Shown one piece after another: positions 1 to 35,172 of a stretch of 64,000 bases of DNA. The position numbers and the translations under genes are program-made. The DNA comes from Moorella sp. E308F. GTDB lineage: Bacteria; Bacillota; DSM-521; Neomoorellales; Neomoorellaceae. Every line of letters starts with the position of its first letter. The stretch's first letter is position 1. The DNA lies in NCBI RefSeq assembly GCF_006538365.1, contig NZ_BJKN01000002.1:820411-884410 (forward strand), given 5' to 3'. Below the pieces are notes generated by a model, which saw nothing but the letters and a program-made list of their open reading frames with translations, was not told the origin of the DNA and searched no databases.

Positions 1-49
1 GTGTGCTCTTCCCGCTGCCGCCCCGGCCGCTAACAATCAATTTAGGCAT
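1..49 (-). CDS. P-loop ATPase, N-terminal fragment
   Basis: The reverse strand opens with ATG at 47-49 and encodes MPKLIVSGRGGSGKST before leaving the window. GRGGSGKS is a Walker A (deviant P-loop) motif sited directly at the N-terminus, as in the MinD/ArsA/CooC family of nucleotide-binding proteins. Only 16 codons are visible, so the subfamily cannot be decided; a CooC/AcsF-type metal-insertion ATPase would suit an acetogen, but that is inference. A purine-rich stretch (GAGGGGG) lies about 12 bases upstream, which is far for a ribosome site. The structured leader at 189-304 lies upstream on the same strand. Confidence 0.6.
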   Translation of the reverse strand, partial: MPKLIVSGRGGSGKST

Positions 50-188
50 CTTTAACCAAACCCCCTCAAATTTTTATTTTTTGAACCAACCAATACGCGC
101 CCCCGAAATACTATCCACATCAGAAGAGTAGGGTTCTTTTAGAAAGTAACCCCACACTGCTGCTCGCCAACTCCCGGACAAAAGTAAG

Positions 189-304
189 AGCCACGGAACC
201 TCCCCTCCTCCATTTTCAAGGGGATTAGGCCTCCGTGGCCCATATACAGAGAAAAGCACCACTTGGATGCTCCTTCGTAAAGACTCAACACCTTCATGGT
301 GCTT
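189..304 (-). other. Two consecutive hairpins in the leader of the left-edge ATPase gene
   Basis: Two inverted repeats lie in tandem. GCCACGGA (about 190) pairs with TCCGTGGC (about 240) and encloses a second C-rich/G-rich pair (CTCCCCT with AGGGGAT). AAGCACCA at 254-261 pairs with TGGTGCTT at 297-304. On the minus strand they fall 140-255 bases upstream of the P-loop ATPase start. I could not match this to a riboswitch class I know. A 62-codon open frame overlaps it but does not look like protein. The rest of 1-420 shows nothing else I recognise. Confidence 0.4.
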
Positions 305-424
305 ATCATTCTTCCTTGCTTCCTTAATTTTGCTTCCCGGCGGCTCCGGCCGCTTTTCTACTCTTGATTATATTCGCTACCTAACCTTAATTTCCTTCTA
401 ACCAAAGTTCGATCTTCCTGAAAG

Positions 425-600
425 ATAGCTGCCGAACAAAAGGCCCGCTCCACCTATGTGTGGCTCATTAATTTGTCTGATGACCCGGACGTTACCGATG
501 TTCTGCGCTTCTTCAGGGAAAGAGAGTCGTCCACTTCCAGCGCTTCGGCGAGACGTTAAACCTGATCCAAGAGTACCTGGAGCGTAAAAAATACTATTAA
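425..600 (+). pseudogene. CotJC-like spore coat protein (manganese-catalase family), broken C-terminal remnant
   Basis: Frame 1 from 425 reads IAAEQKARSTYVWLI followed by NLSDDPDVTDVLRFFRERE. After about 526 the reading continues one frame away as VVHFQRFGETLNLIQEYL and ends at TAA 598-600. Joined, the two pieces match the C-terminal end of CotJC / Mn-catalase-type coat proteins (motif REREVVHFQRFGE). A single missing base near 526 explains the shift, and no N-terminal two-thirds is visible upstream, so this is a truncated, frameshifted relic. A hairpin terminator directly follows, consistent with a former gene end. What I see is the split homology; the family assignment is from memory of the conserved motif. 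Confidence 0.7.
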
Positions 601-630: not shown

Positions 631-752
631 TTATCTCCCACTTTCAATTGGATTGATTATTATTTTTATTGCGTCTTTAGTCATACTGTTGATCTAAGCA
701 GGATTTTAGCGCCTTCTTGTCGTATAATACTATCATATCTTGCTAATAGTCT

Positions 753-846: not shown

Positions 847-879
847 TTAGTTTTGCAACTCCATGTGGAGGTGATTAAG

Positions 880-1296: not shown

Positions 1297-1305
1297 GAGA
1301 TAAGA

Positions 1306-4838: not shown

Positions 4839-4844
4839 CAGGTC

Positions 4845-5963: not shown

Positions 5964-5976
5964 AAGGAGGATGGAC

Positions 5977-9512: not shown

Positions 9513-11189
9513 TTATCTCTTCCTCGCCAGCTTCCTCGTTTTTTTTCTTCTTCCCTTCCTGGTGGTAACGCTTTTCCCTTTGCCTTCACCCAACTGCGTT
9601 TCCAGTTCATCCTGGGCATTTTTATCTCTAGCTGTAATAAAAGGGTGCAGGCCTGGTTTAATACGCCGCAAATCGCGCCAGCCGGTGAGTACAGGCCGCC
9701 AGAGCATGGCCCACCAGGGCACCCTCACCACCAGGTCTTTTTGCGCTTCCCAAATAAATGGTGCCAGGGGGCTGAGATAAGGCTCACCAAAACTCCTCAG
9801 GCTCACCAGGTGGATTAAAATGACCAGCAAGCCGGCAAAAATACCAAGCAGGCCCAGAAAACCGGCTAAAAGAATCATCGGCAGGCGAAGCATCCTCACG
9901 GCCTGGCTCAGGCCAAATGTAGGTATGGTGAACGAAGCGATGGCTGTAGCGGCAATAACAATAACCATTGCCGCCGACATCAGCCCCGCCCGGACGGCTG
10001 CTTCACCGATTACCAGGGCTCCTACGATGCTAATCGCCGGTCCGATGGCCCGGGGTAACCTTATGCCGGCTTCAATGAGAATTTCAAAGAGCACCTGCAT
10101 GATTAAAGCTTCAACAACGGCCGGGTACGGCACCAGTTCACGCTGGGCAGCGATAGAAATTGCCAGGGGGGTAGGAATCATTTCCTGGTGGAAGGTAGTC
10201 AAAGCTACATAAAGGGACGGTAGGAGCAGGGCGATAAATATTCCTAAAAAGCGGAACAGGCGCACCCCTATACTTAAAGGCCAGCGCTCATAATAATCGT
10301 CCGGAGCATGCAACTGGGATACCAGGCTGCCCGGGAGGATCAGGGCAAAGGGTGTACCATCAGTCAAGACGGCTATCCTCCCTTCTAATAAATCGGCAAC
10401 CAGTTTATCCGGCCTTTCCGTGCGGTTAAGCTGGGGAAAAGGAGAATGGGGAGCGTCTTCAATGAGTTCCTCAATATAGCCGCTTTCCAGGATACCGTCA
10501 ATATCAATACGCTGCAACCGGCGGCGGAGTTCTTCCAGAATTCCCTTTAATACCAGTCCTTCCAGGTAACAGATAACCACCTTGGTGTGGGTGCGCCGGC
10601 CCAGGTTCATAGCTTCAAAACGAAGCTCGGGCGCACGCAGCCGCCGCCTGATGAGAGAGATATTCGTTGCTAAATTTTCAGCAAATCCCTCGCGGGGGCC
10701 ACGGATACTAACTTCATTGACAGGTTCTTCGACCGGCCTTTTTTCCCAACCTTCTATACTGAGCAGCAGGCACCGGCTATATCCTTCAACCATTAAAACT
10801 GCCTTACCGTCCAGCAAGCCGGTGATTATCTTTGACCACAGCCTCTCTTCTTGAAGATCGCCGATGGTTAACCTGGCGCGGATCAACCGGCTAAATTTGG
10901 CCTCGTCCCCCGATAGCGGTATTGCCTGCAAGGCTAACAGGGAACGCAGGATATCCCGCTGGACCACATCCCGGTCGATCAGGGTTTCCAGGTAAACCAG
11001 CGCCAGTTTTTTACCTGGCAGTTCTATCTCCCTGATGACCAGGTCCTCACTCTGGCCAAAGGTTTTTTTAAGGTAATTAATGTTAGCATCAAGCCTGGTA
11101 GTTATCGGCAGGGCGTGTTCGTTCGAAGTTTGCTTGCCCGGGGTGGCTTGGCGCCATAAACGGTGCCATATCCAGAGCAAAGCCAGCAC
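9513..11189 (-). CDS. GerA family spore germination protein (A subunit)
   Basis: About 555 residues. The N-terminal cytosolic region contains VREIELPGKKLALVYLE-like GerA sequence (residues 35-290), followed by the membrane domain from about residue 300 with P-rich segments such as ALLLPSLYVALTTFHQEMIPTPL. The C-terminus is very basic. GerA subunits form the germinant-gated channel of the receptor. GTG 11189 is the first start, but a TTG three codons in (11180) has better spacing to AAGGTG. A sigma-G-like promoter lies at 11224-11253. Confidence 0.93.
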   Translation of the reverse strand: MLALLWIWHRLWRQATPGKQTSNEHALPITTRLDANINYLKKTFGQSEDLVIREIELPGKKLALVYLETLIDRDVVQRDILRSLLALQAIPLSGDEAKFSRLIRARLTIGDLQEERLWSKIITGLLDGKAVLMVEGYSRCLLLSIEGWEKRPVEEPVNEVSIRGPREGFAENLATNISLIRRRLRAPELRFEAMNLGRRTHTKVVICYLEGLVLKGILEELRRRLQRIDIDGILESGYIEELIEDAPHSPFPQLNRTERPDKLVADLLEGRIAVLTDGTPFALILPGSLVSQLHAPDDYYERWPLSIGVRLFRFLGIFIALLLPSLYVALTTFHQEMIPTPLAISIAAQRELVPYPAVVEALIMQVLFEILIEAGIRLPRAIGPAISIVGALVIGEAAVRAGLMSAAMVIVIAATAIASFTIPTFGLSQAVRMLRLPMILLAGFLGLLGIFAGLLVILIHLVSLRSFGEPYLSPLAPFIWEAQKDLVVRVPWWAMLWRPVLTGWRDLRRIKPGLHPFITARDKNAQDELETQLGEGKGKSVTTRKGRRKKTRKLARKR

Positions 11190-11223
11190 CTTCTCTAGCC
11201 AAAATTGTGGAACTGGATGGAAC

Positions 11224-11253
11224 TAGTATGAAACCCGGTATGGCTTTATATAC
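11224..11253 (-). promoter_or_regulatory. Sigma-G-like promoter of the gerA-gerC genes
   Basis: On the minus strand GTATA (11249-11253), 18 bases, then CATACTA (11224-11230). The published forespore consensus, as I recall it, is GHATR - 17/18 - CATWHTA; both boxes match fully. The start of transcription would fall near 11216, about 27 bases before the GTG. Confidence 0.6.
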
Positions 11254-16053: not shown

Positions 16054-16086
16054 AAATTTAAAAGGTCCTGAGTTCAACTCAGGACC
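16054..16086 (-). terminator. Intrinsic terminator of the DUF3343 gene
   Basis: GGTCCTGAGTT / AACTCAGGACC (16064-16086) forms an 11-bp perfect stem on the minus strand followed by TTTTAAATTT. The stem contains the TGA stop codon of the DUF3343 gene. Confidence 0.85.
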
Positions 16087-16390
16087 CGCTTTCCTCTCTT
16101 TCCCGCAAATCGCCTGCTTCATATTTCTCAATTGCCTCTATTACCCGGATGCGACCGCGGTCTTTGAGCACCTTTACCTTTTTTTCCAGCCTGACGCCTG
16201 CTGCCTCAAGAAGGGCTAAAGCGTGCACGCTTATTTCCGGCTCCAGCTCCAGAGCCAGGCCGCACAAGGAACTCAGCTCCCGGGGCATTGGTATGAGCCG
16301 CCCTTGAAGTCCGGCACCCTGGACGGTCTTTTCCGCCTTTAGGGCATAATGGGTGGAAGGAAAGGTCAGCAATACCAGCTCGTCAGGCAT
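16079..16390 (-). CDS. DUF3343 protein, putative Se/S carrier
   Basis: 103 residues. The N-terminus LVLLTFPSTHYALKAEK and the short motif LIPMPRELSSLCGLAL match the DUF3343 family (small proteins with one conserved Cys near SSLCG). The family often sits beside SelD, YedF or cysteine desulfurase-like genes and is discussed as a sulfur/selenium carrier. The ATG overlaps the stop of the upstream desulfurase-like gene (ATGCCTGA), so the two are coupled. Function in this organism is inferred from that pairing. Confidence 0.72.
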   Translation of the reverse strand: MPDELVLLTFPSTHYALKAEKTVQGAGLQGRLIPMPRELSSLCGLALELEPEISVHALALLEAAGVRLEKKVKVLKDRGRIRVIEAIEKYEAGDLREREESGS

Positions 16391-17534
16391 CCCGCAGCAC
16401 CCCTACCAGTTCCCGCACGGCAGCCAGGGTGGTCTCGATTTCGGCCGAGGTATTAAAGTACCCCGGGCTCAGCCGCAAGGTACCTGTCGCTAGGGTACCG
16501 GTGGTCTGGTGGGCCAGGGGGGCGCAGTGGAGACCTGAACGAGTTGCAATTTCATAATGATCCGCCAGCCAGGCGCTGGCCTCCCCTGCCGAGATACCCC
16601 GGATATTGATTGATATCACCGGTACCCGCCTTTCCGGCTCCGCAGGGCCGTAGACAGTCACTTCCGGGATTTGCTGCAAGCCCTCTAAAAGCTGGCCTGT
16701 CAGCTCCCGGGTATGCCGGCGGATCTTCTCTAACCCGGTTTCCTGGATAAATCTTACCCCCGCCCCCAGGGCGGCAATGGCCGGGGCATTGATAGTGCCG
16801 CTTTCAAATTTGTCGGGCATTATTTCTGGCTGGGTAAACAACTCCGAGCTGCTTCCCGTACCACCATAGATGAGCGGCCTGATAGTATCCGGGTAGCGGA
16901 TATAAAGACCGCCGGTACCGGGAGGACCCATTAATCCCTTATGGCCGGTAAAGGCCAGCAGGGTAATCCCGGCCGTTTCTACATCTACGGAAATTTCCCC
17001 GGCCGTCTGGGCCGTATCTACCAGGTACTGGAGGTGGTGGCGGCGGGCGATCTCTCCCACTTCATGAATAGGCATAATGGTGCCAGTAACATTGGAAGCA
17101 TGGGTGAGGCAGATCAGCCTGGTACGCGACTGGATTGCTTTTTCCACCGCCAGGGGGTCCAGGGTGCCGTCGGCGGCACAGTTAACGATGGTAAATTCCA
17201 CTCCCTTGTTTTTCAGGGCGTATAAGGGCCGAACCACGGCATTATGTTCCATGCTGCTGATAATGACATGGTCCCCGGATTCCAGCAGTCCTTGGAGGGC
17301 CAGGTTCAGGGCTGCGGTAGCATTGACCGTGAAGACTATCTGTTCCGGCTCCCGGATGCCGAAAAGAGCTGCCAGCAATTCTCGCGTTTCCAGCACTACC
17401 CGGCCGGCGTCCAGGGCCCCTTTATTGCCCCCGCGGTTAACGCTGCCGCTCAACTGTCGTAACCTGGCATCAGCCGTCTGGTAGACGACTTCCGGTTTGG
17501 GCCAGGAGGTGGCGGCATTATTCAGGTAAATCAT
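16383..17534 (-). CDS. Cysteine desulfurase / selenocysteine lyase-like enzyme (class V PLP fold)
   Basis: 383 residues. IYLNNAATSWPKPEVV at the N-terminus, the PLP Lys in FTGHKGLMGPPGTGGLYI (about residue 195), and SGLHCAPLAHQTTGTL with the catalytic Cys at about 337. This is the SufS-like subgroup known from EF2568-type loci linked to selenium-dependent Mo hydroxylases. It would deliver S or Se from cysteine/selenocysteine, here perhaps to the DUF3343 protein. No ribosome site is obvious. It is the last-but-one gene of a unit that begins after the cobalamin ECF genes; the intervening 126 bases contain TATATG but no clear promoter. Confidence 0.85.
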   Translation of the reverse strand: MIYLNNAATSWPKPEVVYQTADARLRQLSGSVNRGGNKGALDAGRVVLETRELLAALFGIREPEQIVFTVNATAALNLALQGLLESGDHVIISSMEHNAVVRPLYALKNKGVEFTIVNCAADGTLDPLAVEKAIQSRTRLICLTHASNVTGTIMPIHEVGEIARRHHLQYLVDTAQTAGEISVDVETAGITLLAFTGHKGLMGPPGTGGLYIRYPDTIRPLIYGGTGSSSELFTQPEIMPDKFESGTINAPAIAALGAGVRFIQETGLEKIRRHTRELTGQLLEGLQQIPEVTVYGPAEPERRVPVISINIRGISAGEASAWLADHYEIATRSGLHCAPLAHQTTGTLATGTLRLSPGYFNTSAEIETTLAAVRELVGVLRDA

Positions 17535-17660: not shown

Positions 17661-18380
17661 TTATAAGTCTTTCCTCCCCGGTAAGAAAGTTACTTCCAGC
17701 TTGCGGCGATAGCGCTGCAGTATTTTCACGAAGCTGGAGCCAAAAAGCAGATAAAAGGTAGCGTTGCCTGCGGCATGAAAGGTATCAAGCCAGAAACTGG
17801 CAGCATAAGTGGCCACCAAGGATTGCCAGGTCAGGGGATGAATAAAGCCCGTCCAGGTCCACAGGTTCATTATCCAGCCAAAAAGGTATCCCCACAGAAA
17901 GCTAAATACCGTCATAACCTTTTTGCCCGCCCGGGGGAAGATAATCCCCATCACCCCTGCCGAGGTGCCGGCCAGCCCCCAGGCAAACATCTGCCAGGGC
18001 GTCCACGGGCCCTGGCCCAGGAAAAAGTTGGATACCAGAGCCGCTGTGGAACCGACCATAAACCCGGCCCGCGGTCCGAAGACAAAGCCAGAAATGATTA
18101 CCATAAAGGTGGCCGGCTGGATATTGGGCAAAGCAGCAAAAGGAACCCGGCCAACGGCGGCAATAGTACCCAGCATGGCGATTACGGCTACCTCCCGGGA
18201 AGAAACCCGTCCCTGTTCAAACCCCCAGTACAGCAAAACCAGAGCCATAATAATTATTACCGAAGCCAGCAAACCCCACCCCTGGCCCAAAAGAAGGGCG
18301 TTTATCTTGATACTGGCCAGCAACAAGCCCAGGATAAACACCAGGGCAAGGGGCAACAGCATTCTACGCCAGAAAGCCAC
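17661..18380 (-). CDS. ECF transporter S component, probable corrinoid binder (CbrT-like)
   Basis: About 239 residues with six to seven membrane segments, and the S-component pattern AVIAMLGTIAAVGRVPFAALPNIQPATFMVIISG. GTG 18380 is chosen because GGGAGGT lies 8 bases upstream; the longer reading adds a GC-rich, basic N-terminus with no ribosome site. In an ECF importer the S component binds the vitamin. It follows a fused EcfA and EcfT and all sit downstream of a cobalamin riboswitch, so the substrate is probably a corrinoid. This is context-based; cobalamin S components are divergent in sequence. Confidence 0.82.
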   Translation of the reverse strand: MAFWRRMLLPLALVFILGLLLASIKINALLLGQGWGLLASVIIIMALVLLYWGFEQGRVSSREVAVIAMLGTIAAVGRVPFAALPNIQPATFMVIISGFVFGPRAGFMVGSTAALVSNFFLGQGPWTPWQMFAWGLAGTSAGVMGIIFPRAGKKVMTVFSFLWGYLFGWIMNLWTWTGFIHPLTWQSLVATYAASFWLDTFHAAGNATFYLLFGSSFVKILQRYRRKLEVTFLPGRKDL

Positions 18381-18529
18381 AGGTAATAACCTCCCAAAAC
18401 GCCAGCCGGGTCGTATAAGGCGGCACAGGCAGCCTGGAAAAAATCGCAAAGAACATCCCATGCAATGGGAAAGCCGTACTCGCTAACCGGCCCGCCGGTA
18501 CGGGCCGGGCGGCGGTCCCTCCGGATCCC

Positions 18530-20200
18530 TCACCTTACTTCTGGAACTGCCTGCCTGGCAGGCCATACGGGTTCCAGCCTGTCCAGGGCATCTTGCAGGG
18601 TCAGGACACCGTCAACATAGCCGCGGCACATTTTACCAATCTGGGTGGAATAAAAAACCGACTGGCCCAGGACCTGGTGTTTAGATCCATCGGCTACGAT
18701 CCGGCCGGCAAACAGCAGCAGCACCCGCGTGGCGTAGGCGGCGGCAAATTCTACATCGTGGGTCACCAATACCACACTTACTCCCTCCCTGCTTAAGCCC
18801 GTCAACATTCCTCCCAGCTCGTCTTTCAAACGATAATCCATCCCCCGGGTAGGTTCGTCCAGTACCAGAAGCCGGGGCCGGGTCACCAGTATCGAGGCCA
18901 GGGCTACCCGCTGGCGCTCGCCGCTGCTTAAATCGCGGGGGTTTACCCGCCGGTAGCGCTGTAAGCCGAGCTTCTTCAGGAGTTCGTCAACCACACCGTC
19001 ATCGGTTAGACCGAAATTTTTTAAGGTGAATAGTAATTCCTCTTCCACGGTATCCTGGAAGAGATAATCATTGGGATTCTGGGAAAGGTAGGCAATCCTG
19101 CCGTCCCCGGGCCGGCACTCGTTACTCAGGTCGCGGCCCATTACCAGCACCCGGCCCCGTCCCGGTTTTAACAAGCCGGCCATGGTCTTCAGGAGGGTGG
19201 ATTTACCGGCGCCGTTATTACCCAGGATAGCCACCAGCTCACCGCCGGCAATTTGCAAACTGATGTCCTGCAGGGCTTCTTTACCGTTGGGATAGGTAAA
19301 CCATACCCTGCTCATGGTCAAAACCGGTTCTCCCGGATTTTCATTTACTACCGGCCTTAAAGGAGGAAACTTCCGGTAGTTAAAGTTGGACCGCAGTAAC
19401 CGGCGTCCTTCCTTGACGGTAACGGGAACAGAGGGGAAACCTAGCCGGGCAAAAAAACGAGCCACGGGAGGAATAAAAGGAATTTCCCTTGCTACCGCCC
19501 AGCGGGCCAGTTGTTCCGGTGTACCCTCATATTTGACCTGGCCGTCTTCCATGAGCACTACCCGATCAGCAAGGTGGAAACACCTTTCCAGCCGCTGCTC
19601 GATTAAAATTATGGTCAGGCCCATCTCCTCATTTAACCGTTTAATGAGATTAAAAAATTCCTCGGCCGCTACTGGATCCAGCTGGGAGGTAGGCTCGTCT
19701 AAAACCAGCGCTCTTGGCTGCATGGCCAGGACGGCAGCCAGAGCCAGCTTTTGCTTCTGCCCGCCGGAAAGGTGCGCGGTAAATTCCTGTCTTACCTCTG
19801 CCAGATCCAGAAAGCTCAGGACTTCGGCTACCCGCCGGGACATTTCTGCCTGGGGCAAGCCCAGGTTTTCCAGGCCGAAAGCGATCTCGGCCTCGACACT
19901 GGTCATAACCAGCTGCTTTTCCGGATCCTGGAAGACTATCCCTACTTCCCGGGCCAGTTTTCGCCGGTCCATCTGGCCCATGTCCCGCCCTTGAAAATAA
20001 ACCTTGCCCCCAAACCTGCCGCCGTAAAAGTCCGGGATCAGTCCGGCCAGCGCCCGCGCTAAAGAAGACTTGCCCGATCCCGAACCGCCGGTTATAAGCA
20101 AAAACTCCCCTTCCTCGATACTTAAATCAATGCCTTTTAAGGCCGGTTTTTCCCTATCCGGGTAATAATAGGTCAAATTTTCACATTGAAATAAGGGCAA
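18530..20200 (-). CDS. Fused double ATPase of an ECF transporter (EcfA-EcfA')
   Basis: About 556 residues with two ABC ATPase domains. The first has Walker A GGSGSGKSS, signature LSGGQKQKLALA and Walker B ALVLDEPTSQLD; the second has GNNGAGKST, LSSGERQRVALA and LLVLDEPTRGMD. Both signature regions match energy-coupling ATPases. TTG 20200 is preferred to GTG 20209 because GGGGGTGG lies 5 bases upstream of it. The start overlaps the EcfT gene, giving coupling. It powers corrinoid import with EcfT and the S component. A fused pair in one chain is less common than two separate EcfA subunits. Confidence 0.9.
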   Translation of the reverse strand: MPLFQCENLTYYYPDREKPALKGIDLSIEEGEFLLITGGSGSGKSSLARALAGLIPDFYGGRFGGKVYFQGRDMGQMDRRKLAREVGIVFQDPEKQLVMTSVEAEIAFGLENLGLPQAEMSRRVAEVLSFLDLAEVRQEFTAHLSGGQKQKLALAAVLAMQPRALVLDEPTSQLDPVAAEEFFNLIKRLNEEMGLTIILIEQRLERCFHLADRVVLMEDGQVKYEGTPEQLARWAVAREIPFIPPVARFFARLGFPSVPVTVKEGRRLLRSNFNYRKFPPLRPVVNENPGEPVLTMSRVWFTYPNGKEALQDISLQIAGGELVAILGNNGAGKSTLLKTMAGLLKPGRGRVLVMGRDLSNECRPGDGRIAYLSQNPNDYLFQDTVEEELLFTLKNFGLTDDGVVDELLKKLGLQRYRRVNPRDLSSGERQRVALASILVTRPRLLVLDEPTRGMDYRLKDELGGMLTGLSREGVSVVLVTHDVEFAAAYATRVLLLFAGRIVADGSKHQVLGQSVFYSTQIGKMCRGYVDGVLTLQDALDRLEPVWPARQAVPEVR

Positions 20201-21102
20201 CGCTGCCACCCCCAGCTCAATACCATCGGAACGGATAAAGAAAGAATGATAATGATTAAAATAATTATGGTCATAGGGCCTTTAATCAAGTAGTCCAACT
20301 GCGGGTAAAAAATGAAGGTGCTGAATCCTTTGGCCTGACCATAAACGGCCGTTGCTAAAGCCAAGAGGGCCCCTCCAAGGCAAAGGCTGTCCCGCGGCCG
20401 CCAGGTATCCCGCCGGTAACAGGAGCGCCGGCCGCTGCCAAAGGCCCGCGCCTGCATAGCCTCGGCTATTTCCAGGGAATCTTCTAGGGAAGAGAGGAGC
20501 AGGATATTCATCAGAGCAGCATATCTGTGCAGCCTTTCTTTTAACGTTCCAGTATGAAAATCAACGCCCCTTATCATTTGCACTTCCTGGATGTTTGCCA
20601 TTTGCCTGACCATGGTCGGAAACAATCTGGTAGCCAGGGACAGCACCAGAGCCGATCTGGAGGCAAAGCGTGCCAGCAAACTTAAAACTTTATCCGGGTG
20701 AACTATAAGATTATAGAGGCAAAAGATGCTGATGATGGCTAAAAGCCGCACGCTCATAGCCGCTCCGTAACAAATGGCTTCCAACGAGACGGTTAAGCGG
20801 CCGAAAACCGGCAGGCGCGGTCCCCACCAGATTATCGTCTTCCCGGCATGGGTCAACAGGGCGTTGACAATAATCACCGGCAACAGCAAGCCCAGGCTGA
20901 GCCGCAAATAAATTTCCCAGACCGCAAGACCCCGGGCAGCGCTAATGGCCAGGACAACGACCAGTAATAACCCCAGCAGGTAAAGGGGGTTGGTGAACAC
21001 CAGGGCCAGCACAAATAAAATGCCCAAGTAAGTCAGGGCTGCCGCCGGATGCAGGCTCTGTAAAAAGAGACCTTTGTCCTGGTAAAAAAATTGATTGAAC
21101 AT
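20173..21102 (-). CDS. ecfT: EcfT transmembrane coupling subunit
   Basis: 309 residues, about five to seven membrane helices. The EcfT coupling motif is visible as EAMQARAFGSGRR at about residue 215 (the family has two such Ala-Arg motifs, the other being MIRGVDF-like near residue 178). It links ATPases to the S component. GGAGGG before ATG 21102. The C-terminus is longer than average and ends in hydrophobic helices. It overlaps the EcfA start and follows the alpha/alpha-barrel protein by 117 bases. Confidence 0.88.
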   Translation of the reverse strand: MFNQFFYQDKGLFLQSLHPAAALTYLGILFVLALVFTNPLYLLGLLLVVVLAISAARGLAVWEIYLRLSLGLLLPVIIVNALLTHAGKTIIWWGPRLPVFGRLTVSLEAICYGAAMSVRLLAIISIFCLYNLIVHPDKVLSLLARFASRSALVLSLATRLFPTMVRQMANIQEVQMIRGVDFHTGTLKERLHRYAALMNILLLSSLEDSLEIAEAMQARAFGSGRRSCYRRDTWRPRDSLCLGGALLALATAVYGQAKGFSTFIFYPQLDYLIKGPMTIIILIIIILSLSVPMVLSWGWQRCPYFNVKI

Positions 21103-21219
21103 CTTCAGTGAAGCCCTCCAAAATGTGCTCCTGCGGAAACTGAAATACTATTTTTCGCCCGTTGGATGTTCCTTGCGGAGCTGACGATTGCCGGCATCGG
21201 CTGTTGCCATAAAGGTGGT

Positions 21220-22590
21220 TTAGTTTGAATTTTTTATGCTCACCGTTTGGGAAATTGCATCCCAGTCTACCTGGTAGCCAAAGGCTTCCGCTACAAACCG
21301 GGCCGGGAGATAGGTACGACCTTCTCGCAGCAGGGGAGCGACGCCGATGCTCCTGGGCTGGCCATTGATGTAGCCGGTCTCTTCGCCAATAACAAGGGTT
21401 ACTGTAACGCCATCCTTGCTCAGTTTAACAGCAGAAGATTTCTCATCCCAGCTAACACCATCACCAGGCACGTCCAGGGCATAAGCCAGGTAACGCACGG
21501 GTACATACGTCCGATCGTTGTCAATGAAAGGGGCTGCATCCATCGCCTTTACATCTTCTTTCCCCTCGGCCACAACTGTATAGCTCCTGTCGCCAACAAT
21601 AAAACGTGCTTTATACCGGTTAGCAGCAGGCGGCGTGGCTAATCGAGCATAAAACGGCTGACCAAAATAGAGGCTGGCCAGGGCCATTAAGGCCTGACTG
21701 GTAGCCATTTCATTACTTCCCGCCCCAGTGATGTGTTCAAAGGAACCGTCAGGCAACTGGAAGCGAAGGAGGGCAGTTAAAATATTTCCTCCTGCTTTGT
21801 TAAAATTGCCTTGAAGTGGATCAATGCCAACTGCAGTCAGCCCTTCAATGACCATGCAGGAGCTTTCTGGATTTTCCGCCCCCCAGGACTCAAAACCGCC
21901 ATTTTCTTTTTGGGCCTTAGCCAGGTAAGCCACTGCCTTTTGGACAACCGGACTATCTTTTTTTTCACCTAAAGCCCCCAGGGCCATTAACGCCATACCG
22001 GTAGAATCCACATCGGACGTTTCTTTATCTGTAGCGTCCCAGTAAAAGGAACCGTCGGCGTGCTGCCTGGCCACCAGCCAGCTTAGGGCCTTGCTCTTAT
22101 CGGGAATATCAGCGCCGGCAGCATGCAGGGCCAATACCGCCCAGATATGGGCATTAACTAGCTGTTCACCGCCATGAGCTATATTGTCAGCAAACTTACC
22201 ACTGGCGAGCTGGGCATCCTGGATCTTTTTTATAAGGTTCTGGCCCTGGTAATTATAGGGGTTCCCTCCAGCAGCCAGAACGGCCAGGACCAGGGTGGCA
22301 TAATCATTCATTTCCCCGGATGCGGTAGCAGCAGCCAGCATTTTTTCACAGGCCTGGCCGGCCAGCGTACCTTTTAAATCCCTTCCTGACGCCGCCAGGG
22401 CAATATAGCTCCAGGGAGACAAAATACCTCTGGCCTTCTCTCTTGTTAACAAATAAGCGGCAGCGTTATTTAATGATTTTCCGGCGCTATCCAACCCGGC
22501 AAGGGCCCAGGCTGGCGTGGCGGCGCCAGCGATAAGTAAGAATAAAATTAAAAAAGCCAGTGCCAAATCTGAAATCCTCTGTTTTAACAT
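21220..22590 (-). CDS. Secreted alpha/alpha-barrel (prenyltransferase-repeat) protein with copper-amine-oxidase-like C-terminus
   Basis: 456 residues. Signal peptide at 1-30 (LALAFLILFLLIAGAATPAWA). Residues 35-315 are squalene-cyclase/prenyltransferase-type repeats (DGSFYWDATDKETSDVDSTGMA, ENGGFESWGAENPESSC, DGSFEHITGAGSNEMATS). Residues 328-456 form two copper-amine-oxidase N-like modules (DNDRTYVPVRYLAYAL, REGRTYLPARFVAEAFG), which are cell-wall modules in Firmicutes. The alpha/alpha barrel corresponds to the N-terminal domain of animal transcobalamin. It is in the B12-riboswitch operon and could bind corrinoid with the next protein; that is inference. Confidence 0.8.
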   Translation of the reverse strand: MLKQRISDLALAFLILFLLIAGAATPAWALAGLDSAGKSLNNAAAYLLTREKARGILSPWSYIALAASGRDLKGTLAGQACEKMLAAATASGEMNDYATLVLAVLAAGGNPYNYQGQNLIKKIQDAQLASGKFADNIAHGGEQLVNAHIWAVLALHAAGADIPDKSKALSWLVARQHADGSFYWDATDKETSDVDSTGMALMALGALGEKKDSPVVQKAVAYLAKAQKENGGFESWGAENPESSCMVIEGLTAVGIDPLQGNFNKAGGNILTALLRFQLPDGSFEHITGAGSNEMATSQALMALASLYFGQPFYARLATPPAANRYKARFIVGDRSYTVVAEGKEDVKAMDAAPFIDNDRTYVPVRYLAYALDVPGDGVSWDEKSSAVKLSKDGVTVTLVIGEETGYINGQPRSIGVAPLLREGRTYLPARFVAEAFGYQVDWDAISQTVSIKNSN

Positions 22591-22615
22591 GCCTGTGTAC
22601 CCCTTTCCTGATAAA

Positions 22616-23377
22616 TCAAGGTGAAGCCGCCTTCAACTCTTCCCAGGTGGGCCCGGTACTGTTCAGGGTTTCGCTATACCACCAGATAATCTTATCACCT
22701 GACCGAATCCCTTTCTCGCTGGCCGCCACCATGGGGATCTCCTCGTTAACCTTATACATCCAGCCGGCCATACCTTTATTGTCTTGCCCGGCTATACCCA
22801 GGACAAAATTGCCGTATACAGGGCTCATGCTGTATTTCAGGCCGCTGGCATCCAGGGCCCCGAGGGCCGTCAACCCCCATTTGTTGTTTTTAGCAACCGT
22901 CACCGTAGCAGGACCATAAAGGAGTTGCCCTTTCATGCCAACTACGGCAATATCCACCCGACACCCGGAGGCGGCAGGAGAATCCTGGTTATAACTGCTG
23001 TTGCCGTCTTTCTTAGCTGCTGGTAGAGGGGCGCTGCTGCCGGCATCACTCTGGCTGCCAGCACTCTGCGCCAGCTGTGTCGCCTGGGGAGTACCGGCAG
23101 GTCCCGAGGCTTTCCCCCCGCCGGTTATAGCGCTGTCACCTGACTTCTCCCCCGCCGTTTTTTCCGGCGGCTTGAGGGTCTCAGGCGCTTTTTGATTGCC
23201 GGCACTTTCCGGAACGCTGCCGGCAACAGCATTCTCCGCTGGTAAGGGAGCCCCGGTGGGTGGTGTCCGGACATTATCAGCCCCGCGTGGCCCGGTATAG
23301 AAATTGGAGATTGCCGGCCCTATTAAGGCCAGTAAGACGATCAGGGCCGCTACCAGGTAAATAAATTTTTTTTGCAT
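22616..23377 (-). CDS. Membrane-anchored DUF4430 (transcobalamin beta-domain-like) protein
   Basis: 253 residues. One N-terminal membrane segment (residues 5-22) without a convincing cleavage site, then an Ala/Pro/Gly/Ser-rich linker of about 110 residues, then a DUF4430 domain from about 137 to the end: CRVDIAVVGMKGQLLYGP, KWGLTALGALDASGLKY, GMAGWMYKVN, DKIIWWY. DUF4430 is related to the C-terminal beta domain of transcobalamin and intrinsic factor. The paired alpha/alpha-barrel gene follows 25 bases on. Ribosome site GAGGAAT. Together they would rebuild a two-domain B12 carrier from two chains. Confidence 0.8.
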   Translation of the reverse strand: MQKKFIYLVAALIVLLALIGPAISNFYTGPRGADNVRTPPTGAPLPAENAVAGSVPESAGNQKAPETLKPPEKTAGEKSGDSAITGGGKASGPAGTPQATQLAQSAGSQSDAGSSAPLPAAKKDGNSSYNQDSPAASGCRVDIAVVGMKGQLLYGPATVTVAKNNKWGLTALGALDASGLKYSMSPVYGNFVLGIAGQDNKGMAGWMYKVNEEIPMVAASEKGIRSGDKIIWWYSETLNSTGPTWEELKAASP

Positions 23378-23512
23378 TTACGATTCCTCGCTATGCCTGT
23401 ATTATCAGTCCCGTTAAGGCCACCTTGTCTGGGCCCGTAAGATCTCTAGCAATGATGAGGAGCACCGCTGGACTCGCCGGCGCTCCCCACCGTTTTAATC
23501 ATTCTTTTCTAT

Positions 23513-26500
23513 CTACTCTGCTACTAGCATCCTGTAGACCATCACTGCACATTCTGCCCGGCTGGCCGCCTCTCCGGGCCGGAAAGTCCCATCTTCAAAG
23601 CCTTTAACCAGCCCGTGGGCGGCAGCTGCACCCACGCTCTTTCTGGCCCAGGCAGAGACTTTGTCGTTATCTTTAAAGGATAGTTTCTCCTCGCCCTCAG
23701 GCAAGTTCATGGCCCGTACCAGCATAACCGCCACTTCTTCGCGGGTAATGGTCTTTTCCGGGCGGAAGGTGCCGTCCTCATAGCCCTTGACCAGGCCGTT
23801 GCCGGCGGCGGCAGTTACTGCCCCGGCGTACCAGGCGTCACCTTTTACGTCCTTAAAGGGGTTCTTCGTCCCTTCTTTCACCTCCAGGCCCAGGGCCTTG
23901 ACCAGGAGGCTGGCAAATTCCGCTCTGGTCACCGCCCGGCCCGGCTCGAAGCGGCTGCTGTCCACCCCAGCCACAATGCCAGCCCCGGCCAGGGTTTCAA
24001 TGGTATCCTTCGCCCAGGCAAACGAATTATTAGTTACATCCTCAAAAGATTTCCTGGCTTCCTTTGCAAACACGGCATAGTCGGAGAAGTGGTTTATCCG
24101 GGCCAAGATTAAGCCTTTAGACATGTCGACCACGGCCGGTATAGCTACCCACTGGCCTTTTGTCTTATCGTACCAGGCCAGGGCCAGGTTTTCCGGTTTG
24201 GCCAGGGGCGGCAAGGCAATTTTTAAGTTTAAGGTCACCGGTATGTTGAAGGTAGTTCCGTCGGGTCCAAAATTGTAAATTGCCGATATTTGCTGGTAGC
24301 CTGCCGGCGGAGGAGCCTGGGCGGCATTACCCCCGTTATTTCCAGCGCTCGCAACAACAGTATTCTTCTTAATGGTAATCTCTAAATCGTTTTGTAATGC
24401 CTCGGCTGGTATGGACAGGGCTATTTCTTCTTTAGCATCAGTTATGATTGCTCCCGCTGAAGCGGTGACCTTCTGGGCCAGATCAATTTGGTTTTGGGCC
24501 AGTTCTTTTCTCAGGGCGGCAATTTCAGCACGGCTCATGGCTTTTTCGCCGCCAGTGACTACCACGGCTTTTTTAACTTCGCTTAAAGGAGCGATCTGGA
24601 AGGTACCCTCTGTTAATTCCAGCAACTGGTTAATTTTCGCTAATGCATCCACGGCAACTTGGGGGGCCTGTAGGGCTACTGGGAGTTTTTTATTTTGCTC
24701 CTTTAGATCGGCCGGTACAGACATAGCCGTCGAGGCAGATGTGCTGCTTTTTACCAGACTTTCCCACACTGGTCCCGAAGAGCTCCAGTCCGTACTGTAC
24801 CACCAGATGATCTGGTCGCCCTCCTGGATCGCTTTCTGGGAAGCGCCCACTATGGGTACGCTGCCGTTGACTTTGTACATCCACCCGTTCATACCACTGT
24901 TGGCCTGGCCGGCGATGCTTTTAACAAAGCCGTTATCGTCGACGTAGGAAAGACCGGTGGCGTCCAGGGCTCCCAGGGCCGTCAGGCCCCACCTGCCGTT
25001 TTTGCTCACCATGACCGAGCCGGGCCCATAAAGGAGCTCGCCGTTCATGCCTACTACGGCAATGTCGACGATGCAGTAATCACGATCCGGAGTGGATGAG
25101 GTGGGTAAGGTAATATTGAGAATGGCCGTCGCCGTCAGGCCGTTATAAATAGCCTTTACCACCGTCTGGCCGGTATTGAGGGCAGTGACCAGGCCGTAGT
25201 CGCTGTCAGAAACACTAGCGATGCTGGTATCGCCCACCGACCAGACGGCCTCGTTGGTCACGTCGCTCCTCGTGCCGTCAAAATAAGCCAGTACGGCCTT
25301 AAACTGCTGCTTGCCGTTGAGATTGAGGCTGGCAGCAGCAGGTTGAACAAGAAGGCCCAGGGAAGTTCTGGGGTCGATTGTTCCAGCCAGGATAAGATAA
25401 GTATAAAGGGCCTCGCTGGCGTCCAAAACATTTCTATATGCACCAAAGCTACCATCATCGTTCAAGGCTTTGAGCATCATGTAGGATACCGGCGATAACC
25501 CCGTAGGGCTTCGCCAGCTCAAAAGATCATGTCCCAGCCTTTTCAGGGTAATAATCACTTCGGTGGTATCTACTACCGGATCTTCGGCCCAAGACTCGGT
25601 GCGATAATACACGCTGCCGTCAGGCTGCAGCCACTTCTTTAAATAGGCCAGGCCCTTATCGATGGCGCTCTGGATTTGCGGGTCATTTTGTTGATAACCT
25701 GGCAGATAAGTCAAGGCCCGGATCGCCTGGGCGGTAGACATAAAGTCGGGGTAAAAAGTGTTACCCACCGCCTCTCCCCAGGCGCCATAAGTGGCCTCGG
25801 CCACGCTTTGCTTGCCCAGGATGTAATCGTGGGCATAAACATCATTGATTAAGGTTATCTGGCCCGCTTCCCCCAGAGCAATATAGGCCCACATGTCGCT
25901 GTAAACGCTGTTGTCAAAACCGTTAGGAGAATGCCGTTCCTTTAAAAGATTTGCCAGCTTATTTACCCGTACTGTATCACCCCATCTATTTAAGGCCAAC
26001 AAGCATTGGGCTATAGTTTTCGTTCTTGATCTTTTCACCCATGGAGAACTGCTGCCGGCATAATCATTATACGTTTTACCTAAAGATTTTAAGGCAATCA
26101 GGGTTTCGGCCGTAGAAAAGGTACTATCCCACTGGGCCGGGATAGCGCCAGTGTCTACGTCCTGGATATCTTTAAGGTAAGCCAGGCCCTCCTGGATGGT
26201 TTTATAAACGTCGCTACCTTCTACCTTCGCCCCGTCAAAGTAGCTGAGGGCCGTAAGCACCTGGGCCGTTAAATCCGGTTCCTCCGCGGTATAACCGCTC
26301 CATGCCGCTCCGGCTGGCTGCCCCCAGGCGTTTTTATGTTCATGTTTAAACCCATTAAGGTAGTTCAAGGCATACACCTGGTCAATGACACTAAGCCTGC
26401 CTGCTTTGCCAAGGGCGGTTAAAACTGTAACATCGTCATAAATGCTGTTGCCAAAATAAATCGTTCCATTAGTAGTCTTTTGTTTAGCAATAATGGCGTC

Positions 26501-27271
26501 GGCTAGCATATTAATGTAACTTGAAGTCGGATCTACGGCATAAAGGGCGGTTAATTCTTTCGCCAGATAGACGGCATCCAGTACGGAGGGATTGCTGGCA
26601 GCAGCCTCGGCAGAGGCAATAACGACATTTTTCAAAGATTTACCATTATAGACCCACCCGCCTCCAGAAAGGTCTTCACCGGCGTTGACCAGAGCTTCTA
26701 CGCAGCGATAATCAAAGTTCCAACCGTTGACCTCATAAGTTAAACTGCCATTCTGGTAACGATTTTTAAAATAAGAAACTGCCTTGCTAATGCTGTCCTG
26801 GACCTGGTTATAAACAGGATCATTAACCGGCAAATCAGGTTTTACCAGCGCCAGGGCCTGCAGCGGTGCCTTGGTGCCATAATCATTGGCCAAAGGGCCA
26901 AAGCTACCGTCGGCATTCTGGGTCGCCATAATGTAAGTAATTAAACTATTATTATTGCCAAGTAAGTCGGCCAGTTTTTCGATGCTGCTTTTTAACGTTT
27001 CCTCATTCTTGGTCCATTTTACTTTATCTTCTAGATTTTCTCCCGCCAGGGTAAGTATGTAGGCCGTGTAGCCGTCAATCTTCTCCCCGGCCTGGTAGCG
27101 GTCGTTAATAAATTTTATGGCTTTGGCGGCCAGTTCTTGGGCAGTATAGGCAACGGCCTGATCCGCGGCCATAGCCTTGTCCGGGACAACAAAAGGTACA
27201 AGAAAGCTGAAAAGAAGGCAAACCGTTGTTGCCAGGGATATAAAACGCCTGTTGAACCTCTTATAGGACAT
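23513..27271 (-). CDS. S-layer-anchored transcobalamin-like multi-domain protein
   Basis: About 1252 residues. Signal peptide (1-34, ending near DKAMAADQA); two alpha/alpha-barrel halves of prenyltransferase-type repeats (40-640); a Big_2-like Ig fold (645-725); a DUF4430 domain (730-837, with CIVDIAVVGMNGELLYGP, GMNGWMYKVN and DQIIWWYS); a Thr/Ala linker and a beta-rich module (840-1070); three SLH domains (1072-1252: FEDVTNNSFAWAKDTIETL, FKDVKGDAWYAGAV, FKDNDKVSAWARKSV). ATG 27271 is chosen for AAGGTGG at 5-base spacing and because the extension before it spoils the signal peptide. The barrel and DUF4430 match both transcobalamin domains; SLH holds it on the cell wall. First protein gene after the B12 riboswitch. 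Confidence 0.85.
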   Translation of the reverse strand: MSYKRFNRRFISLATTVCLLFSFLVPFVVPDKAMAADQAVAYTAQELAAKAIKFINDRYQAGEKIDGYTAYILTLAGENLEDKVKWTKNEETLKSSIEKLADLLGNNNSLITYIMATQNADGSFGPLANDYGTKAPLQALALVKPDLPVNDPVYNQVQDSISKAVSYFKNRYQNGSLTYEVNGWNFDYRCVEALVNAGEDLSGGGWVYNGKSLKNVVIASAEAAASNPSVLDAVYLAKELTALYAVDPTSSYINMLADAIIAKQKTTNGTIYFGNSIYDDVTVLTALGKAGRLSVIDQVYALNYLNGFKHEHKNAWGQPAGAAWSGYTAEEPDLTAQVLTALSYFDGAKVEGSDVYKTIQEGLAYLKDIQDVDTGAIPAQWDSTFSTAETLIALKSLGKTYNDYAGSSSPWVKRSRTKTIAQCLLALNRWGDTVRVNKLANLLKERHSPNGFDNSVYSDMWAYIALGEAGQITLINDVYAHDYILGKQSVAEATYGAWGEAVGNTFYPDFMSTAQAIRALTYLPGYQQNDPQIQSAIDKGLAYLKKWLQPDGSVYYRTESWAEDPVVDTTEVIITLKRLGHDLLSWRSPTGLSPVSYMMLKALNDDGSFGAYRNVLDASEALYTYLILAGTIDPRTSLGLLVQPAAASLNLNGKQQFKAVLAYFDGTRSDVTNEAVWSVGDTSIASVSDSDYGLVTALNTGQTVVKAIYNGLTATAILNITLPTSSTPDRDYCIVDIAVVGMNGELLYGPGSVMVSKNGRWGLTALGALDATGLSYVDDNGFVKSIAGQANSGMNGWMYKVNGSVPIVGASQKAIQEGDQIIWWYSTDWSSSGPVWESLVKSSTSASTAMSVPADLKEQNKKLPVALQAPQVAVDALAKINQLLELTEGTFQIAPLSEVKKAVVVTGGEKAMSRAEIAALRKELAQNQIDLAQKVTASAGAIITDAKEEIALSIPAEALQNDLEITIKKNTVVASAGNNGGNAAQAPPPAGYQQISAIYNFGPDGTTFNIPVTLNLKIALPPLAKPENLALAWYDKTKGQWVAIPAVVDMSKGLILARINHFSDYAVFAKEARKSFEDVTNNSFAWAKDTIETLAGAGIVAGVDSSRFEPGRAVTRAEFASLLVKALGLEVKEGTKNPFKDVKGDAWYAGAVTAAAGNGLVKGYEDGTFRPEKTITREEVAVMLVRAMNLPEGEEKLSFKDNDKVSAWARKSVGAAAAHGLVKGFEDGTFRPGEAASRAECAVMVYRMLVAE

Positions 27272-27338
27272 TCCTGCCACCTTGCCTTTCATAAAATTTA
27301 GCCAGAGAATCAAAAGGGTCTTAACGGGTGTCACACCT

Positions 27339-27398
27339 TTACGACGTGCTCCAGACCCAGCACCTGTCTGCTTGCAAAAATGAAAAAGACGGCCTCAT
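27339..27398 (-). CDS. Candidate 19-residue leader peptide between B12 riboswitch and SLH protein
   Basis: ATG 27398 is preceded by a strong ribosome site GGGAGGTG and reads MRPSFSFLQADRCWVWSTS to TAA 27339. It is embedded in a terminator-like hairpin (27373-27446) whose stem includes its start codon. It has no similarity I know. Peptides of this kind act in attenuation or mark a translated leader; no run of one amino acid suggests a specific codon sensor (two Trp and one Cys near the end). Real translation is unproven. Confidence 0.35.
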   Translation of the reverse strand: MRPSFSFLQADRCWVWSTS

Positions 27399-27446
27399 GC
27401 TAACACCTCCCTGCAATACTCCCCGGGTGGGTTAGAATAGGCCGTC
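27373..27446 (-). terminator. Terminator-like hairpin overlapping the leader peptide start
   Basis: GACGGCCT / AGGCCGTC (27388-27395 and 27439-27446) with an inner CTAAC/GTTAG pair, followed on the minus strand by TTTTTCATTTTT. It lies after the first riboswitch terminator and would form a second attenuation point. Confidence 0.5.
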
Positions 27447-27560
27447 CATCTACCGTTCCCGGCGCATCGTGAACATCCAGTTGTTGTCCCTTGTTGGAAG
27501 CTCCTTGCCGGGCCGGCTGGCAGCATTTAAGCCGGCCCCTCGGGGCCAGGCGCCTACCCT

Positions 27561-27599
27561 GATAAAATTAAAACCCCTGCTCCAAAGAAATCAGGGGTT
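27561..27599 (-). terminator. Terminator of the cobalamin riboswitch
   Basis: AACCCCTG / CAGGGGTT (27572-27579 with 27592-27599) then TTTTAATTTTATC on the minus strand. It lies directly after the aptamer and is the expected OFF structure when B12 is bound. Confidence 0.85.
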
Positions 27600-27635
27600 A
27601 TGCCGTTTCCCCATCCTGCGTAGGGAGCACCAGCT

Positions 27636-27833
27636 ACTTCGGCAAGCACCAGGTCTCCTGGCTCGGGTTCACCGTTCCCCCACGCCTTCCCAGCCCGCAC
27701 TCAGCCTAAAGAAGTTAACCCGTTACAAAAACGTACTGAGTAGCGGTCCAGTGGCCTGATGCGGGGTCACTCCCCCTTACAGTGGCGCGACCGCGCCGGA
27801 TTTGCACCGGCTTCCCTTGATGCCTGCACCGTT
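27636..27833 (-). promoter_or_regulatory. Cobalamin riboswitch
   Basis: Reading minus strand from about 27833: GGGAAGCCGGTGCAAATCCGGC, then GCGCCACTGTAAG, then GCCACTGG, and the B12 box GAGCCAGGAGACCTG near 27650-27665. All four are in the correct order for the adenosylcobalamin-class aptamer. Two hairpins with U tracts follow before the SLH-anchored gene, so B12 should shut off the whole corrinoid uptake operon (SLH protein, DUF4430 protein, barrel protein, EcfT, EcfA, S component). Just upstream, TATGGGGCAAATAAA occurs twice (about 27898-27930). Confidence 0.95.
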
Positions 27834-32826: not shown

Positions 32827-34863
32827 TCATACCTTGAAGCGCCCCACTTGTTCTTCTAATCGCCTGGCTACCCTGAGGACCTCCTGGGCTGTTGAGGCTA
32901 TCTCCTGGGTTGATGCTGACAGTTCCTCAGCCGAGGCCGAAATCTCTTGTGCCGAAGCTGAAGTTTCTTCCGACACAGCACTTATGCTCTGAACCCGTTC
33001 CAGCATCACGTCCTTGGCCTTCACAGTGTTGTCTACCTGACGGTACGTCTCATCGATCGTGGGTGCTATAGCGGCTACCGAATGGAGTATGTCGTCAAAG
33101 GATTTGACCGTTTTTTCTACATTTTCCAGTTGCGCAACTACCTGCCTCCTGACTTCCTCCGAAGTGTTCACAACTTCATTGGTCCCCGCGGCTATAGTGT
33201 CCAACAGCGCCCTGATCTTATCCGAAGAAGCACGGGACTGCTCAGCCAGCTTGCGGACCTCATCCGCCACCACTGCAAAACCGCGGCCGGCCTCGCCTGC
33301 GCGCGCCGCCTCAATGGCCGCGTTCAAGGCCAAAAGGTTCGTCTGGTCTGCTATCCCGTTGATCACTTCCAGGATCTCGCCTACTTGATTCACAGAGCTG
33401 CTTAAATCAGTTAATTTCTCCACGACCACCTTGAAGGCCTCGCGCACATCCTTGATGGAAGCAATCAGGATGTCCAGCTCTTTCTTGCCTACACCTGCCA
33501 GCCTGGAGGTCTCTTCGGTGTTAGCCTTAACGTAACCAAGTTCGGTGTACACCTTCTCCAGGTTGGAGGTTATATTTTCAACGAGGCCCAGTATTTCCTG
33601 CAGGTGACCCGCTTGTTCCGAGGCTCCCGAGGCCACCTGTTGGATGGCCTTGGCAACTTCGCCGGAAGAAGAGGCGATCTCTTCTGAAGCAGCGCTTAAG
33701 GCCTCCGAGTTGCCGGCCAGCGTTTTAGCGTCTTCTTTGAGTCCTGAAAGCAACGGTTTGAGGTCGGCCTGCAGGCGGTGCACCGCCCGGACGAGCCGGC
33801 CTATCTCATCCTTCATGCGGAGGAATTTTTCAGAAACGGGTCGGGTGAAGTCGCCACCGGCTATAAGCCCCAGGTCGTCGACAGCCAGGGCCAGAGGAGT
33901 GGTAATAGTTCTTGCCATTACAAGAGTCAGTACCAAGGCAACCAGGATTATGATCAGGGAGACAAACAGCACGGACCATTTAAGGCCGGCGATCTTCTCC
34001 AGCACCTCGACTTCGGGGGCGGCAACTCCCAAAGACCAGCCGGTGCTCTCAACAGGTGCGTAGGCTATAATTTCCTTTTGGCCCTGGAAGATGTAATTGC
34101 CGACTCCCCTTTCTCCTTGAATCATCCTGGACATTACTGCCGCCAGGGAATCCAGGGAAGGGTCAGACTTAACCGCCTCCACGACATTCTCCTCATTTGT
34201 GACCCTCTCCGCGTCCTTGTGAGCTATGGTCTTACCGGTACTGTCTACTGCAAACGCATACCCAGTACGTCCATATGTAATGTCCGCCACCAGCTCGCTG
34301 AACTTTGTCGCGTCCACTATACCAATCAGCACGCCGATTATTTCATCGGTGGCATAGTTGCGTATAGGTGTGGTATAAGCAAATATAACCGACTTGTCGA
34401 TCTTGCTGACAATAGTGCTGGAGACGAAAGTCTTACCCTCCAGGGCAGCCCGGAAGTGTTCCCGGTCTGCGATGTTAGCTTTACTGCCGTCGGAATATAC
34501 TGCGTTCCCTTCCTTATCAGCAATGCCAAACCGCCTGAAGCCCAGACTTCCCGCTTTTTTTTGCTCTTCCCGGAGAACATCCAACTTTTCTTCTAGCGTG
34601 GCTTCGCGGTCGCCCCATCGCCCACGGATGACGGTGTTATTGGCCAGGGTTTCCATAACGTACATCCGCGCCTGGATGCGGCTTTCCAAAGTTTCGGCGG
34701 CCTGCTGGGCCATCTTCAACATGGCCTCTTTAGCTTCGCTCTCCAGAGCGTTCCTGGCACGGTCGTAGCTTACAAATACCAGCACCAGGCATCCAACTAG
34801 AACGATCAGCCCGAAGAGCGCGGTCATCTTGCCTCGCAGACTTCCTGTAAGTTTTCCCATCAT
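32827..34863 (-). CDS. Methyl-accepting chemotaxis protein (dCache-HAMP-MA)
   Basis: 678 residues. Signal-anchor helix (about 11-30), extracytoplasmic dCache sensor (35-280), second membrane helix (285-310), HAMP (310-365), and a long MA signalling coiled coil with the tip [23 protein letters not shown] (about 510). The C-terminus lacks the CheR-tethering pentapeptide. It reports ligand binding to CheA/CheW. Two ATGs open the gene and the ribosome site is weak. A c-di-GMP-I riboswitch and terminator lie in its leader, so synthesis of the receptor is tied to c-di-GMP. Confidence 0.93.
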
Positions 34864-35011
34864 ACTGCTGCCGGTCGCTCCCGCTCCTGGCGAACTTCGG
34901 TCTGCGGGGCGACCTATACCTCCTTCATTACATTTGTCTTGCTAGAACGACAATAGCTTTGCCTCAGCCTCACCCATTAAGGAACTAACCTAACGTTTTA
35001 CCCCATTTTGC

Positions 35012-35046
35012 GTTTAAATTTAAACGGCCGCTTTCACGGCGGCCGT
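35012..35046 (-). terminator. Terminator of the c-di-GMP riboswitch
   Basis: ACGGCCGC / GCGGCCGT (35024-35031 with 35039-35046), then TTTAAATTTAAAC on the minus strand, between the aptamer and the MCP gene. Confidence 0.75.
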
Positions 35047-35082
35047 AGAGAACCTGTATTTAATTTCAACTTACTTACTCCC

Positions 35083-35172
35083 CCGGCAGCCTGGCTACCA
35101 TATCCTTAAAACGGACTTAGGTCCGCGGCTTTGCGCCCCCGCCTTTCGACGAGTTTGCCTTTAGCGGTACTG
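35083..35172 (-). promoter_or_regulatory. c-di-GMP-I (GEMM-I) riboswitch
   Basis: Minus strand reads GGCAAACTCGTCGAAAGGCGGGGGCGCAAAGCC then GGACCTAAGTCC and GGTAGCCAGGCTGCC. The GGCAAAC...CGAAAG, GCGCAAAGCC, CCTAA and GGTAGCCAGGYTRCC elements are all in consensus order for the c-di-GMP-I aptamer. A terminator hairpin follows about 37 bases later and the MCP starts about 220 bases after the aptamer. The rest of the 34864-35469 gap holds a promoter (35207-35236) and a terminator (35414-35450). Confidence 0.92.

Follow-up and report, generated by a model that had tools for sequence, protein, structure and literature searches.

A cobalamin-riboswitch operon of Moorella sp. E308F encodes a CbrT-type importer together with transcobalamin-like surface proteins

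We analyzed a 64,000-nucleotide stretch of the Moorella sp. E308F genome (contig NZ_BJKN01000002.1, positions 820,411 to 884,410 of the forward strand; hereafter the window) and focused on an operon that runs from 27817 to 17661 on its minus strand. A cobalamin riboswitch and a terminator are followed by six co-directional genes encoding, from 5' to 3', a large surface protein with toroid, Ig, DUF4430 and SLH parts, a separate and likely anchored DUF4430 protein, a toroid protein with a Cu_amine_oxidN1 domain, and the EcfT, fused EcfA-EcfA' and S components of an energy-coupling factor (ECF) importer, with intergenic gaps of 135, 25, 117, −37 and 68 nucleotides. The operon comprises the following features, with protein lengths in amino acids (aa).

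27651..27817, minus strand: cobalamin riboswitch aptamer RF00174 (cmscan, 87.9 bits, E 2.4e-20)
27562..27599, minus strand: terminator-like hairpin (AACCCCUG...CAGGGGUU) with a U-rich tail, directly 3' of the aptamer (sequence and RNA fold)
23513..27334, minus strand: exported 1273-aa protein with a nested double toroid, Ig (Big_2), DUF4430 and three SLH repeats (Pfam, own profiles, AlphaFold)
25376..27151, minus strand: toroid region of the 1273-aa protein, residues ~62-653 (AlphaFold model and structural alignments; 6..597 and 73..363 in model numbering, to which 56 is added)
24770..25072, minus strand: DUF4430 (transcobalamin C-terminal-like) of the 1273-aa protein, residues 755-855 (Pfam PF14478, 3.8e-14; own profile)
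23528..24046, minus strand: three SLH repeats of the 1273-aa protein, a cell-wall anchor (Pfam SLH, 2.2e-41)
22616..23377, minus strand: 253-aa stand-alone DUF4430 protein (Pfam DUF4430, 1.8e-14)
21220..22590, minus strand: exported toroid protein of 456 aa with Cu_amine_oxidN1 at the C-terminus (SQHop_cyclase_C 1.3e-11, Cu_amine_oxidN1 1.8e-33)
20173..21102, minus strand: EcfT transmembrane component, CbiQ family (Pfam CbiQ, 8.4e-15)
18530..20209, minus strand: EcfA-EcfA' fusion, a single ATPase chain with both ABC domains (TIGR04520 4.3e-120 in two stretches; ABC_tran twice)
17661..18461, minus strand: ECF S component, CbrT-like (Pfam ECF_trnsprt, 5e-12)

These features are far beyond what chance would give, and about 40 relatives have them too. 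A sequence-only reading of the same DNA had named the riboswitch, SLH, DUF4430, EcfT, the fused EcfA pair and the S component, all of which Pfam and cmscan bore out at coordinates that had been correct to a few bases. The aptamer exceeded the curated cut-off of 31.5 bits and covered model positions 45-169 of 189. The terminator call rests on the hairpin and the U run, since the whole-region RNA fold z-score was only −1.43. The riboswitch is probably an OFF switch that acts through transcription termination, and from the terminator we infer that transcription would continue when B12 is scarce.

The last three genes form a complete CbrT-type ECF set, as had been claimed from sequence, with a CbrT-homologous S component, EcfT and two EcfA domains. 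CbrT of Lactobacillus delbrueckii was the sole PDB relative of the S component at E values up to 10 (6fnp_A, E 1.8e-14), and the two proteins have the residues N-QP-T, SN-FLG-G-WT--Q-FA and D--HAAGN--FY in common; the true start of the S component is probably downstream of its annotated ATG. The original prediction of CbrT is attributed to Rodionov 2009 (cited through PMC5997447). Experiments have established that ECF-CbrT imports cobalamin and cobinamide at the expense of ATP (PMC5997447), and CbrUVT is in established use as the annotation of an ECF importer dedicated to B12 (PMC6593275). Homology and the riboswitch suggest that the S component of the operon would move the same substrates as CbrT. 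The operon shares its CbrT-like S component and the EcfT and EcfA partners with ECF-CbrT (6FNP, PMC5997447) and CbrUVT (PMC6593275), whereas the Moorella module differs in being dedicated and carrying a fused ATPase pair, all encoded within one operon, and in its link to surface DUF4430 proteins.

Pfam gave no toroid call in the 1273-aa protein, for which an alternative start is possible at ATG 27271, while our own profiles and the AlphaFold model did. In the model of residues 57-868 (predicted local distance difference test, pLDDT, 88.7), an outer toroid (residues ~62-126 plus 426-653) carries an inserted second toroid (~129-419) and is followed by the Ig and DUF4430 domains, such that the single barrel of the sequence-only reading stands as a fold but undercounts, there being two toroids with one nested in the other. 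The corresponding gene of Moorella mulderi DSM 14980 looks broken (L121:2788-3968, plus strand, and L048), with the toroid and SLH pieces kept, the DUF4430 part missing and the other operon genes intact.

The 253-aa protein has a hydrophobic N-terminal segment at residue 5, a long low-complexity linker rich in Pro, Ala and Gly, and a C-terminal DUF4430 that is 60% identical to that of the 1273-aa protein; the Moorella genome holds no DUF4430 domains beyond these two. Across the loci that we compared, the majority of separate DUF4430 proteins begin with a strongly hydrophobic segment and about one third have a lipobox, and because of these features they are likely membrane-attached. In the 456-aa protein, Pfam assigned the toroid to SQHop_cyclase/Prenyltrans. 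Its Cu_amine_oxidN1 domain is probably a surface-attachment module, since a similar domain replaces SLH at the C-terminus in four other loci (L051-L054).

We compared ligand-free structure models of two proteins with the PDB, namely residues 57-868 of the 1273-aa protein and the toroid-DUF4430 part of a relative, L046, whose linker is short and whose toroid is single ( 431 aa, pLDDT 85.8, seven-sequence alignment). The first 15 Foldseek matches of the L046 model were transcobalamin, haptocorrin or intrinsic factor and nothing else (E 1.8e-10 to 2.6e-8), each over both domains and at an identity of ~13-15%, and its DUF4430 superposed at 2.8 Å on human transcobalamin's beta domain in the apo state (5no0). 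For the 1273-aa model, animal carriers were among the matches from rank 8 (E 5.5e-6) and aligned across the outer toroid and DUF4430 (model residues 6-794, Z ~18). Neither phmmer of the 1273-aa protein nor a profile of the relatives' toroid-DUF4430 pair recovered transcobalamin from the PDB; structure comparison alone found the match. The transcobalamin-family architecture, an alpha/alpha toroid and then a DUF4430-like beta domain, is present in the operon's large protein in the same order as in transcobalamin, intrinsic factor and haptocorrin, and the earlier claim of likeness held on these comparisons. Unlike the animal carriers, the Moorella protein is wall-anchored, carries an extra nested toroid and an Ig domain, has a split version and has no known receptor.

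To assess conservation, we drew 119 genomes evenly from the phylum and found DUF4430 in 38. Leaving out the three genomes of the window's genus, we obtained 43 DUF4430 clusters in 35 genomes, and a cobalamin riboswitch lay within 8 kb upstream on the same strand in 33 of the 43, compared to ~0.24 expected by chance. The set recurs under cobalamin riboswitches. A CbiQ-type gene was found within 8 kb of 24 clusters. Forty loci were then excised for annotation with window-derived profiles. Among the 37 with EcfT, a fused ATPase and an S component, the window included, a separate DUF4430 protein was present in all 37, a toroid-DUF4430 fusion in 31, and a toroid chain without DUF4430 in 27 (a few chains were damaged or cut by contig ends). 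The loci were picked by DUF4430 occurrence, so the presence of some DUF4430 is by construction; the constancy of the separate protein is not. In a tree that combined the DUF4430 domains of fused proteins with those of separate ones (78 rows, 110 columns; weak support), the two kinds required 7 label changes compared to 26 when shuffled. They were clustered but did not form one clade each, and the tree was too weak for a single ancient duplication splitting fused from separate DUF4430, a scenario that we set aside.

Split and fused forms are both real, as the sequence-only reading held: both occur in the operon, and locus L125 has the split form only, with a toroid-SLH protein, an anchored DUF4430 protein and the ECF genes but no fused toroid-DUF4430 within the locus. 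At L141 and L142, an anchored DUF4430 protein immediately precedes a CbrT-like S component (CbrT E 5e-21), with neither a toroid nor an ECF module adjacent. L113 joins an S component, a toroid and SLH repeats in one open frame of 737 aa (4613-6826, minus strand), though in a single genome that is the lone representative of its genus in the sample, and a lost stop codon is possible. These arrangements suggest that DUF4430 and the toroid may both work beside the S component. Elsewhere around such genes, L141:4701-9500 and L142:4695-9654 adjoin biotin-type carboxylase/decarboxylase genes (PYC_OADA), and no cobalamin riboswitch was found in those genomes; at L145:5648-6509 (plus strand), a lipoprotein DUF4430 adjoins a small membrane protein without a Pfam or PDB match, possibly an S component with a different ligand.

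On the basis of the CbrT homology, the structural match to the carriers, the riboswitch linkage, the invariant separate DUF4430, the L141 and L142 pairs and the L113 fusion, we consider it likely that the operon encodes a conserved, B12-repressed corrinoid importer with surface transcobalamin-like proteins that would capture the ligand. Several observations weigh against this. Ten of the 43 clusters lacked a cobalamin riboswitch, the only class looked for, several of them at contig ends, and the DUF4430 clusters at L144 and L145 had no recognisable S component. The genome has its own B12 synthesis genes (cbiD, cbiE, cbiL, cobyric acid synthase and cbiB, behind a second cobalamin riboswitch), so uptake is not obligatory. 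Comparison with transcobalamin reproduced the two-domain fold but not the domain placement of the bound form: root-mean-square deviations over both domains were 20-25 Å relative to cobalamin-bound carriers, and the closed arrangement was absent from the models. The pLDDT of the L046 linker was below 50, and the differing orientation could be an open, ligand-free form or just an ill-defined linker. The models thus stay compatible with the pocket that the sequence-only reading had looked for between barrel and beta domain, but do not display it.

The toroid alone also scored slightly better against terpene cyclases and sugar epimerases, with squalene-hopene cyclases and drimenyl diphosphate synthases at the top (Z ~22), which, along with the Pfam label of squalene-hopene cyclase or prenyltransferase on the separate toroid, would fit an enzymatic role of the toroid proteins in place of binding, whether of terpene-cyclase type or in the modification of corrinoids or wall sugars. 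However, neither toroid protein of the window has the DxDD motif of class II terpene cyclases, which 58 of the 64 toroid proteins surveyed also lack, and a terpene-cyclase role was set aside for that reason. The toroid proteins are exported and wall-anchored, and B12 carriers ranked first once DUF4430 was included in the L046 model, such that we regard an enzymatic function as highly improbable. The surface proteins could instead bind something else, or be general wall-structure proteins sharing the regulon of an importer that handles corrinoids unaided, since SLH, Ig and Cu_amine_oxidN1 are common cell-wall modules and L. delbrueckii CbrT, accompanied by its ECF module alone, is functional in E. 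coli (PMC5997447). That explanation leaves aside the separate DUF4430 at every complete locus, the frequent toroid-DUF4430 fusion, the match of the L046 model to B12 carriers over both domains and the joining of S component and toroid at L113, and we judge it unlikely.

Five RF00174 riboswitches were found in the Moorella genome, the operon's included. A third riboswitch locus encodes a CbiM/CbiQ cobalt importer, and at L139:6475-8589 (minus strand) an anaerobic (class III) ribonucleotide reductase is encoded behind another cobalamin riboswitch. Because the genome also encodes B12 synthesis, the operon most likely serves corrinoid salvage in a B12 maker. In a compatible variant with the same capture mechanism, import would mainly concern a precursor or incomplete corrinoid such as cobinamide, or a lower-ligand variant, complementing the cell's own synthesis. 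The encoded de novo steps and the acceptance of cobinamide besides cobalamin by CbrT (PMC5997447) are consistent with this, whereas the sequence holds nothing that separates these ligands and CbrT is promiscuous; we hold such a preference to be possible, if on the less probable side. In one complete Moorella genome that lacks DUF4430, a cobalamin riboswitch persists but no ECF operon follows it (L128, ~11130-11250, minus strand), possibly a relic of operon loss.

For the capture and import of corrinoids by the operon, we propose that low B12 would let the riboswitch permit transcription through the terminator, after which the SLH-anchored protein may hold corrinoid at the wall between its toroid and DUF4430, as transcobalamin does. 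The membrane-held separate DUF4430, either by itself or joined by the separate toroid in a split transcobalamin, would then receive the corrinoid and offer it to the CbrT-like S component, and EcfT with the fused EcfA pair would power import with ATP, by homology to ECF-CbrT. That these proteins form a relay of two stations, in which the wall-anchored transcobalamin passes its ligand to the membrane-tethered DUF4430, with or without the separate toroid, and the latter docks on and loads the S component, is a tentative proposal to which we give slightly less than an even chance. To our knowledge, ECF importers are generally described as working without extracytoplasmic binding proteins.

A surface counterpart of transcobalamin is not a new proposal. 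In the portions of Burroughs et al. 2007 (PMC1796856) available here, exported proteins of Gram-positive bacteria with toroid and transcobalamin-type (SLBB) domains are described as likely B12 scavengers, with a second exported SLBB paralogue and operons with CbiO and CbiQ; the examples include a Moorella protein with Ig domains, and animals are proposed to have acquired the toroid-domain pair from Gram-positive bacteria. The operon resembles those systems in its exported toroid-DUF4430 protein, second exported DUF4430 protein and CbiO/CbiQ genes. The hosts there usually lack key B12 synthesis enzymes, a tendency rather than a defining rule, from which Moorella departs by having synthesis genes. 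The same portions mention neither the riboswitch nor a CbrT-type S component, and are also silent on the SLH anchor, the stand-alone toroid protein and the split form. The operon is a well-preserved case of the system proposed from sequence in 2007. New here are the CbrT identity of the S component, the riboswitch linkage statistics, the structural match and the invariant separate DUF4430, along with the split-only locus, the S-toroid-SLH fusion and the nested double toroid. The Bacteroides lipoproteins BtuG and BtuH have folds unrelated to the toroid and DUF4430 proteins. They likewise place surface B12 capture ahead of an importer in a B12-riboswitch context (PMC6143338, PMC8941943), but in a Gram-negative outer membrane with BtuB/BtuFCD, whereas the Moorella operon encodes ECF components. 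Our literature search, which covered few subscription journals, found no bench test of such surface proteins.

Immediately downstream of the operon (16079-17534, minus strand), a class V aminotransferase gene (cysteine-desulfurase-like) overlaps that of a small Se/S-carrier-like protein. Elsewhere in the window, a fluoride riboswitch precedes two tandem CrcB/Fluc-like small membrane proteins, an ordinary arrangement (746-1674, plus strand), and a cyclic di-GMP-I riboswitch precedes a methyl-accepting chemotaxis protein (32827-35169, minus strand).

Little is known of how Gram-positive bacteria collect scarce corrinoids across their thick wall. The B12 carriers of animals have been proposed as descendants of such bacterial surface proteins. 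With its B12 riboswitch and CbrT-like S component, the locus offers a compact set for direct tests of capture, ECF hand-off and transcobalamin ancestry.

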